Assembly: GCA_021166815.1 (NCBI GenBank)
Contig: JAJPEO010000136.1
Span: forward strand, 1-16,786
Direction: 5' to 3'
DNA length: 16,786 bases
DNA from: Nocardioides sp.
GTDB lineage: Bacteria > Actinomycetota > Actinomycetes > Propionibacteriales > Nocardioidaceae
Numbering within the stretch: position 1 is the first letter of the stretch; every line of letters starts with the position of its first letter. The translations under genes and the position numbers were made by a program. The notes below the pieces were generated by a model. It was not told where the DNA came from. It searched no databases and was given only the letters and a program-made list of their open reading frames with translations. Below, in pieces: positions 11,101 through 14,568 of the stretch.

Positions 11101-12459
11101 GTGACCTCCCCGGCCTCCGACTTCCCCATGCTGCCGCCCGGGTTCCGCTTCGGGACCAGCACGGCCGCCTACCAGATCGAGGGCGCGTGGGACGAGGACG
11201 GCAAGGGCCCGAGCATCTGGGACACGTTCGTCCACACCGAGGGCAAGGTCTCCGACGGCTCGACCGGTGACGTCGCGTGCGACCACTACCACCGCGTCGA
11301 CGAGGACGTGGCGCTGATGAAGGCGCTCGGCACGGGCGGCTACCGCTTCTCCATCAGCTGGCCGCGCATCCAGCCGACCGGGCGCGGCCCGGCCAACGCC
11401 GCCGGCCTCGACTTCTACGACCGGCTCGTCGACAAGCTCCTCGCCAACGGCCAGCAGCCGATGGCGACGCTCTACCACTGGGACCTGCCGCAGGCGCTGG
11501 AGGACGACGGCGGCTGGCTCAACCGCGACACCGTCGATCGCTTCGCCGACTACGCCGCGATCGTGGGCGAGCGCCTCGCCGACCGCGTCGAGCACTGGAT
11601 CCCGATCAACGAGCCCAACGTGGTGACCATGCTGGGCTACGGCCTGGGCATGCACGCGCCCGGCAAGGCCCTCCTCTTCGACGCCCTCGGCGTGGCCCAC
11701 CACGTCCTGCTGGCCCACGGCCGGGCCGCGATCGAGCTGCGCCGGGCCGGCGCGACCTCGATCGGCTGCGCCAACAACCACGCACCCATCTGGCCCAACA
11801 GCGACGACGACGCCGACGTGGGCGCGAGCAAGTTGTTCGACGCGCTCTGGAACGGCATGTTCCTCGAGCCGATGCTGCTCGGCCGCTATCCCGCGGACCT
11901 GCAGCCGCTCATGGAGCAGGACATCGTCGAGGGCGACATGGCGACGATCCGCCAGCCGCTCGACTTCTACGGCGTCAACTACTACAACCCGATGCGGGTC
12001 GCGGCCTCGACCAGCGAGGACGCCGAGATGCCGTTCGAGTACCGCGAGGTCGTCGGCTACCCCACCACCGACTTCGGGTGGCCGATCGTCCCCGACGCGC
12101 TGCGCGAGTGGCTCATCATGTTCCGCGCCCGCTACCGCGCCGCCCTGCCGCCGATCTACATCACCGAGTCCGGCTGCTCCTACAACATGGGCCCCGACGA
12201 GCACGGCGTCGTCGACGACCAGCCCCGCATCGACTACCTCCGCGCCCACCTCAAGGCCGTCCAGGAAGCCGTCCAGCGCGGCGTCGACATCCGCGGCTAC
12301 TACACGTGGTCGCTGATGGACAACTTCGAGTGGGCCGAGGGCTTCGCCCAGCGCTTCGGCCTCGTGCACGTCGACTACGACACCCTGGTCCGCACGCCCA
12401 AGAAGTCGTTCCAGTGGTACGCCGACCTGATCGCCGCGCAGCCGAGGTCCAACGGCTGA
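11101..12459 (+). CDS. Beta-glucosidase, glycoside hydrolase family 1
   Basis: A 452-residue single-domain (beta/alpha)8 enzyme that hydrolyses beta-glucosides such as cellobiose with retention. The GH1 N-terminal signature FRFGTSTAAYQIEGAW (about 15-30) is present. The acid/base is E171 in PINEPNV and the nucleophile is E356 in YITESGCS; most GH1 members read ITENG there, so Asn is replaced by Ser next to the nucleophile. The aglycone-side YYTWSLMDNFEWAEGF (about 400-415) is also typical. There is no signal peptide, so it acts on imported oligosaccharides in the cytoplasm. The start is GTG 11101, about 10 residues before the fold begins; ATG 11128 is a shorter alternative. No transporter gene is adjacent, so sugar specificity is open. 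Confidence 0.95.
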   Translation: MTSPASDFPMLPPGFRFGTSTAAYQIEGAWDEDGKGPSIWDTFVHTEGKVSDGSTGDVACDHYHRVDEDVALMKALGTGGYRFSISWPRIQPTGRGPANAAGLDFYDRLVDKLLANGQQPMATLYHWDLPQALEDDGGWLNRDTVDRFADYAAIVGERLADRVEHWIPINEPNVVTMLGYGLGMHAPGKALLFDALGVAHHVLLAHGRAAIELRRAGATSIGCANNHAPIWPNSDDDADVGASKLFDALWNGMFLEPMLLGRYPADLQPLMEQDIVEGDMATIRQPLDFYGVNYYNPMRVAASTSEDAEMPFEYREVVGYPTTDFGWPIVPDALREWLIMFRARYRAALPPIYITESGCSYNMGPDEHGVVDDQPRIDYLRAHLKAVQEAVQRGVDIRGYYTWSLMDNFEWAEGFAQRFGLVHVDYDTLVRTPKKSFQWYADLIAAQPRSNG

Positions 12460-12467
12460 GGGTGCTG

Positions 12468-12498
12468 GAGGCCCGTACGGGCTCTTTCCCCGGGCCTC
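12468..12498 (+). terminator. Terminator of the glucosidase gene
   Basis: GAGGCCCG (12468-12475) pairs perfectly with CGGGCCTC (12491-12498), loop 15 nt. Alternatively GCCC/GGGC around GTAC is followed by TCTTTCCCC. Both start within 10 nt of the stop codon. Confidence 0.5.
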
Positions 12499-12518: not shown

Positions 12519-12669
12519 GGAATCACCGGATAACCCCCATGTGGCCACGTTGTCGACCGGTGCAACGGGGGCGAACCTGGAGGAGTGGGTCGGGCTCGCG
12601 CACTTCACCCGGTTGTCGGCCGCTGCAACCGCATCAAACCCGGCGCACTGGGGGTTATCCGGTGATTCC
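12519..12669. repeat. 151-bp inverted-repeat element with perfect 21-bp ends
   Basis: The 12519-12539 arm (starts GGAATCACCGGATAACC) is perfectly complementary to 12649-12669. Inside, two 18-mers, GTTGTCGACCGGTGCAAC (12549-12566) and GTTGTCGGCCGCTGCAAC (12612-12629), differ at two positions and are near-palindromic themselves. The element fills the gap between the convergent glucosidase and gntK genes and ends 2 nt before the gntK stop codon (on the plus strand). No coding frame and no target-site duplication are seen. It may be a small non-autonomous mobile element (MITE-like) or a large terminator structure. Confidence 0.75.
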
Positions 12670-12670
12670 G

Positions 12671-13176
12671 TCAGGCCGTACGCCGTCCCAGCGCGTCCAC
12701 CAGCTCGGCGACGAGGTCGTCGAGGGGCCGGGAGATGTCGACGACGATGCCGTCCTCGTCGGGTTCGAGGTCCTCGAGGGTGGCGAACTGCGAGTCGAGC
12801 AGGCTGGCGGGCATGAAGTGCTCGCGCGAGCCCATCCGTTCGAGGATGACGTCGGCGGTGCCGGCGAGGTGCACGAAGACGGTGTCGGGGTCGCCCTCGC
12901 GCAGCACGTCGCGGTAGACCCGCCGCAGCGCCGAGCAGGCGACGCCGGTGCCCTTGCCGGCGGCGGCGTGGCGGGCGGTCCAGTCGGCGAGCTCGCGCAG
13001 CCAGGGCCAGCGGTCCTCGTCGGTGAGGGGGACGCCCGACGACATCTTGTCGATGTTGGCCCGGGGGTGGAAGTCGTCGCCCTCGGCGAAGGTGAGGCCG
13101 AGCGCCTCGGACACCGGGCGCCCGACGGCGCTCTTCCCTGTGCCCGAGACGCCCATGAAGACCACGTGCAGGGGCA

Positions 13177-13177
<1 letters not shown>
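12671..13177 (-). CDS. gntK: Gluconokinase
   Basis: A 168-residue P-loop kinase that phosphorylates D-gluconate to 6-phosphogluconate, feeding the pentose-phosphate or Entner-Doudoroff route. The Walker A GVSGTGKS (9-16) is followed by the GntK signature EGDDFHPRANIDKMSSGVPLTDEDRWPWL (given in part; about 34-62), then CSALRRVYRD, FVHLAGT and a lid region with REHFMPASLLDSQFATLE. The length matches the thermoresistant GntK type. The ATG at 13177 shares its A with the gntP stop (TGATG), so the two genes are translationally coupled in the order gntP-gntK. No GntR-type repressor gene is nearby. The 3' end abuts the 151-bp inverted-repeat element. Confidence 0.95.

Positions 13178-14568
<1,391 letters not shown>

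Follow-up and report, generated by a model that had tools for sequence, protein, structure and literature searches.

The window analysed here is a 16,786-nucleotide stretch of Nocardioides sp. DNA (contig JAJPEO010000136.1), and it contains a 151-bp palindromic element whose ends also bracket, elsewhere in the same genome, a gene for a predicted AbiEi-Vsr nuclease. The element lies between a GH1 glycosidase gene, which ends at 12459, and a convergent small-kinase gene, whose stop starts at 12671, 1 bp from the element (Table 1). An earlier note on this DNA had described perfect 21-bp inverted ends, paired internal 18-mers and a large imperfect palindrome overall, and all three descriptions hold: direct comparison of the ends established the 21-bp pair, which a general repeat listing did not show, both 18-mers are present, and 100 of the 151 positions agree with the reverse complement. 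As the note had held, such ends are very unlikely by chance, a perfect inverted pair of at least 21 bp within 300 bp being expected about 5e-5 times per random window of the same base composition. On either strand, the RNA fold of the element is better than that of each of 200 shuffles (z −5.8 and −7.3), and an Rfam search with the repeat gave no match.

Table 1 Features of the repeat locus in the window and of the gene-bearing unit in the same assembly (REP, repetitive extragenic palindrome; REPIN, REP doublet forming a hairpin; MITE, miniature inverted-repeat transposable element; ORF, open reading frame)
Feature	Position	Strand	Basis or remark
Putative 151-bp doublet, two inverted AbiEi-Vsr-element arms joined without gene (REPIN/MITE-like)	12519..12669	.	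Five further doublets and gene-bearing C231:4558-5968
Left outer end GGAATCACCGGATAACCCCCA	12519..12539	+	Direct end comparison; 17-bp end recurs in genome
Right outer end, perfect inverted copy of left	12649..12669	-	Direct end comparison
Left-arm inner near-palindrome GTTGTCGACCGGTGCAAC	12549..12566	.	Sequence; similar module in other copies and C231 arms by reading
Right-arm inner near-palindrome GTTGTCGGCCGCTGCAAC	12612..12629	.	Sequence; similar module in other copies and C231 arms by reading
GH1 glycosidase, upstream host neighbour outside element (scanned piece only, start not determined)	11278..12459	+	PF00232, E 2e-128
Small kinase, convergent downstream host neighbour (piece picked by eye)	12671..13189	-	PF01202, 21.2 bits, slightly below cut-off of 22.1
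330-aa AbiEi-Vsr ORF	C231:4755-5747	-	Sole recognisable gene inside C231 unit

The assembly to which the window belongs (G000, a Nocardioides draft of 2.83 Mb in 400 contigs, 89.7% complete) contains 18 sites that match the 17-bp end with at most 3 mismatches, and none that match the reversed control pattern. Six doublets were found, namely that of the window (151 bp) and those on contigs C366 (152), C269 (151), C323 (151), C52 (162) and C271 (108). Their pairwise identity is just 0.64–0.81, and the copies are therefore not recent. On contig C231 (4558-5968), the same ends span 1411 bp, with one recognisable gene between them. Further mechanical frames are open in this unit, as expected of GC-rich DNA (the longest wholly internal one has 295 amino acids and is on the plus strand); no family search was made with these overlapping frames. 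The C231 arms align to the 151-bp element at 75–84%, and the element looks like both arms of the C231 unit minus the middle, an arrangement of two joined inverted arms that would make it read as a single big palindrome. This partner gene, bracketed by the same ends, is beyond what the sequence of the window alone could show. Some copies have additional ends: C366 (5766 and 5818) and C269 (2041 and 2093) carry another left end exactly 52 bp upstream of the doublet, and C231 carries two right ends 32 bp apart (5936 and 5968). These spacings are near whole helical turns and are perhaps traces of repeated or misplaced copying.

The N-terminal half of the C231 protein has a predicted AbiEi antitoxin fold (structure match 6y8q; PF13338), and the predicted fold of its C-terminal half is the PD-(D/E)XK fold of the Vsr endonuclease and the homing endonuclease I-Bth0305I. 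Residues E217, D250, E261, D263, K267, E285 and R288 are invariant across 30 aligned rows. AbiEi antitoxins bind inverted repeats and autoregulate via inverted repeats in their promoter, according to the available text of PMC7319586. No AbiEii-like (DUF1814) partner was noticed beside the C231 gene on reading the neighbouring ORFs, with which no family search was made. Homologs are present in 338 of 391 genomes sampled across the order, and some are named in databases as AbiEi-family antitoxin domain protein or very-short-patch-repair endonuclease. A second paralog in G000 (L044, contig C284) displays 53% identity and has quite different arms (CGGTCGGTTTCCCCGCTTGAGCGGGGAACTGG).

Long inverted arms bracket the homologs as well. 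Among 80 named Nocardioides/Marmoricola loci, the arm-pair score reached the thresholds of 16 and 20 in 77 and 74 loci, respectively, compared to 2 and 0 of 314 random 960-bp intervals in the same loci and 13 and 4 of 240 mismatched arm pairs. In the first 31 loci, almost all genes lie between inverted arms; the weakest locus (L103) scored 13, and shuffles over all loci scored up to 13. Beyond the genus, 29 of 38 loci have arms: 13 of 13 from other genera of the same family, and 10 of 14, 5 of 8 and 1 of 3 from three further families in the order. In the cross control for these loci, 3 of 120 cases reached 16, with one pair at 88.

An arm spans about 80 bp, with an outer palindrome (about 26 bp) followed inwards by a second, imperfect one. 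The outer palindrome has 9 or 10 of 10 pairs in 111 of 154 arms, as opposed to 3 of 320 random gene stretches. In a set of 73 distinct left outer palindromes from 77 loci, in whose alignment one row is misplaced and another gapped, 89.3% of cells are paired and 12 of 13 pairs show two-sided change. The cells with such change number 185, compared to 55.7 ± 7.0 for shuffles and no more than 54 after sliding, each palindrome being the best of its arm, a choice that favours pairing. The single-copy element with uncompensated arms that the earlier note had named as counter-evidence is thus not what we find, as the repeat is multi-copy and the outer palindrome of related arms covaries strongly.

The two arms of a locus evolve in concert. 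By their flanks, 65 of the 77 loci sort into 11 groups, which indicates that the gene is for the most part passed on at a fixed position; the flanks of C231 had no match to the flanks of these groups at E 1e-30. For 53 loci in groups of at least three, the median score is 46 between the two arms within a locus and 14 for the same arm between orthologs, and the within-locus score, which is somewhat favoured by the positioning of arm windows by left-right match, exceeds the ortholog mean in 52 loci and the best ortholog in 28. Judging from these sequences, the arms of a locus seem to be kept alike by some process of copying from one to the other. Arm similarity correlates with protein similarity (Mantel Spearman 0.376, 0 of 999 permutations; median rank 2 of 72) over 73 loci, 4 loci with stops having been dropped.

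Dispersed copies were followed in other genomes. Those of G108 are mainly single arms, about 80 bp in length and of the same type as the arms that bracket its own gene. The 23 loci examined there hold 28 outer palindromes, including the gene's own two, of which 20 have a one-sided tail (that of L136 is doubtful) and 8 do not. The listed copies in G031 (4 of 40 pattern matches, a count that takes strands separately because the palindromic pattern matches both) share their outer palindrome with the right arm of the gene. In nine genomes, the rank of the own gene by repeat match was 1, 1, 1, 1, 3, 4, 8, 9 and 17 of 96, the ranking not including every homolog of each genome. In G010, locus L145 (C25:291612 onward) is a tandem array in which outer and inner palindromes alternate with a period of about 62 bp. 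By reading, two arm copies at L130 (G108:C2:1093605 and 1093781) adjoin repeated tRNA-like 3′ ends (TTCGAGTCTCGTCATCCGCTCCAG).

Sites of such units are filled in some species and empty in others, differences that may reflect gain or loss. A convergent-gene junction of G108 (L127) was traced in its own locus and in 16 of 30 loci fetched: six genomes have an arm-type copy (G108, G161, G176, G030, G125, G180), five have nothing there, or no more than 15 extra bases as extrapolated from the flanks (G046, G184, G183, G186, G141), four have another palindrome family or a longer insert (G045, G017, G012, G019), and two are unreadable (G206, G120). In a 30-kb block, a G108 unit of a different arm subfamily is absent from G176 (about 91% identity), G046, G184 and G183; G161 and G125 hold yet other units at that junction, and G030 is unreadable. 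Two more G108 sites in this block are filled in G176 and one is absent from G161, the rest being unreadable. The G108 gene unit, traced in 13 of 30 loci fetched, is full-length in G161 and G176 and missing in G132, G045 and G206, where 5–9 bases separate the aligned flanks. Its site is occupied by geneless arm-type units in G211, G046, G152 and G168, and in G113 within a longer insert; G017, G225 and G154 have other repeats there.

Two foreign repeat types were seen at these sites. The palindromes at the L127 junction in G045, G017, G012 and G019 (L250, L255, L262 and L253) have GGTAGTCC..GGACTACC-like ends and look GTAG-tagged, though no Y1 transposase was found in these genomes. At the gene-unit site, L377 (G154), L397 (G113) and L371 (G017) contain GCGTCATRCGAACC..GGATGACGC-like palindromes that resemble CGTC-tagged REPs and are in tandem in L377.

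Outside called ORFs lie 27 of the 30 copies examined, and the three inside are perhaps miscalls. Like the window copy, 12 of 27 placed copies are between convergent genes according to crude gene calling, compared to 12 of 62 background gene pairs (Fisher p 0.016); in G108 alone, 8 of 22 placed sites are convergent (p 0.096) and 2 divergent. In other bacteria, too, most REPs lie between convergent or unidirectional genes (PMC3733652, available text). PF01797, the family of Y1 transposases that includes the REP-associated tyrosine transposases (RAYTs), was found in 0 of 14 Nocardioides genomes, some of them drafts, and in 5 of 14 known genomes used as a control; other transposase families were not searched. 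As RAYTs are Y1 transposases and none was found, the bracketed AbiEi-Vsr protein is the best candidate enzyme.

Combining these findings, we consider it probable that the 151-bp element is a non-autonomous doublet belonging to a two-part system, and we favour reading it as a REP/REPIN-like repeat that an AbiEi-Vsr nuclease would mobilise. One part would be the gene, present as distinct single copies between two inverted arms and encoding an AbiEi-like DNA-binding half and a Vsr-like PD-(D/E)XK half. The other would be the mostly intergenic dispersed repeats, in the form of single arms, inverted doublets such as the window copy, or lone outer palindromes. The AbiEi half would bind the arm palindromes, the nuclease half would nick or cut at arms or targets, and repair would copy arms to new places and between the two arms of the gene, whose unit would itself seldom move. 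That the protein cuts and spreads the arms is our inference. The broader proposition, about which we are evenly divided, is that these units are selfish elements of a new class, widespread in Actinobacteria, in which a nuclease-AbiEi fusion spreads its own palindromic arms by cut-and-repair into intergenic gaps and keeps the two arms of its gene alike, arm sequence and protein specificity drifting together.

Several observations weigh against this model. At E 1e-3, only the N-terminal AbiEi_4 domain of the C231 protein has a Pfam match, and it is the predicted fold and the invariant residues that support the nuclease half. Arms are below threshold at 3 of the 80 named loci (L185, L217, L210) and at 9 of the 38 outside. 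The repeat is closer to the gene of another genome than to the tested own gene in five of the nine genomes ranked (G010, G112, G120, G121, G125), and the correlation between arms and proteins may be partly due to shared descent. G096 has 12 outer-palindrome matches, yet weak protein homologs (best E 4.7e-16); its repeats may have outlived their enzyme. No target-site duplication was visible by eye in the G000 copies or at the filled/empty junctions, which carry additional bases and are too diverged to exclude one, and no fixed target was found. Movement within a strain was not seen in this comparison of one genome per species. Searches of plasmids and phages did not find the gene, apart from one partial 44% match on a plasmid; together with synteny in 65 of 77 loci, this means that the complete unit does not behave as a frequently moving transposon.

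The promoter autoregulation of AbiEi antitoxins (PMC7319586, available text) and the location of arms on either side of the gene raise the possibility that the arms are operator sites, through which the AbiEi-like half represses its own gene and, at the dispersed copies, a regulon, the nuclease half being incidental. We regard this as unlikely: one arm is downstream of the gene, the dispersed copies have no upstream bias, the arms of one locus change together and are unlike those of orthologs, and copies appear and vanish between species. In our view, the arms are quite unlikely to be the ends of an ordinary MITE derived from a conventional insertion sequence (of DDE or another type), with the AbiEi-Vsr gene as a passenger. 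Inverted ends, a size of 108–162 bp, dispersed copies and a longer related element with the same terminal inverted repeats (TIRs) at C231:4558-5968 are all MITE-like, but the gene between these ends is AbiEi-Vsr rather than a known transposase and is the only recognisable one there, it recurs with arms across families in which the arm sequences differ, and target-site duplications were not seen, the transposase search having covered the Y1 family.

The strong fold of the 151-bp element and the excess of convergent sites fit transcription terminators or RNA hairpins under selection, the gene being one like any other between two terminators. The earlier note had proposed a double terminator for the convergent genes, and a side-role of this kind is possible; as a full explanation it is very unlikely, since it leaves the association with the gene unexplained, as well as the rarity of such arms around random intervals in the same loci, the concerted arms and their correlation with the protein, and filled sites whose counterparts in relatives of unchanged gene order are empty; Rfam, too, offers no match. 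The note fared better with a non-autonomous mobile element or palindromic repeat family, both supported by multiple genome copies and by filled and empty orthologous sites in relatives. The empty-site comparison that it suggested was positive for units of the same kind; no empty site could be shown for the window's own copy. Its interpretation is partly supported.

The preferred reading of a repeat with an AbiEi-Vsr partner draws a parallel to REPIN/RAYT systems, in which short palindromes are dispersed between genes, in inverted doublets and tandem clusters, and a dedicated gene, present as distinct single copies and flanked by repeats, is apparently not self-mobile (PMC3116915, PMC3733652, available texts). 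The present repeats are likewise multi-copy intergenic palindromes and form inverted doublets in G000, single arms predominating in G108. The element would work like a REPIN with its RAYT, through an unrelated enzyme; lacking both the Y1 enzyme and the GTAG tag, it falls outside that family. Its partner is not a Y1/HUH transposase, its ends read GGAATCACC with borders that lack GTAG or CGTC by reading, two palindromes make up its unit of about 80 bp, and Actinobacteria are not among the phyla listed in the available part of PMC3733652. TIRtrons (tyrosine transposase genes with long TIRs) also have one gene between long inverted repeats, and some of their TIR families are dispersed (PMC3733652, available text), but their enzyme is unrelated and the arms of AbiEi-Vsr units are themselves palindromic. 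The protein resembles the antitoxin of the type IV toxin-antitoxin system AbiE in its N-terminal half but adds a nuclease half. The latter has the same predicted fold as Vsr and I-Bth0305I but differs from them in its fusion to an AbiEi half and in the palindromic arms on either side of the gene; no intron or intein was noticed, although no search aimed at one was made.

GTAG-type REPs are tied to one enzyme family, the RAYTs, and the spread of other palindromic repeats is open (PMC3733652, available text). Here, actinobacterial palindromic repeats are paired with a different, identifiable candidate enzyme, which makes binding, cutting and copying directly testable. If true, the model would assign a function to many actinobacterial proteins, some of them annotated as AbiEi or Vsr, and a RAYT-independent, non-HUH origin to REP-like repeats. 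Such pairing of repeat and enzyme is already known in kind from REPIN/RAYT, and AbiEi-Vsr as the partner would be a new variant; no description of it was found in the open-access literature among the listed titles and abstract openings.

Shortly before the element, after the GH1 gene, a hairpin GCCCGTACGGGC followed by TCTTTCC (window 12471-12489) is terminator-like.
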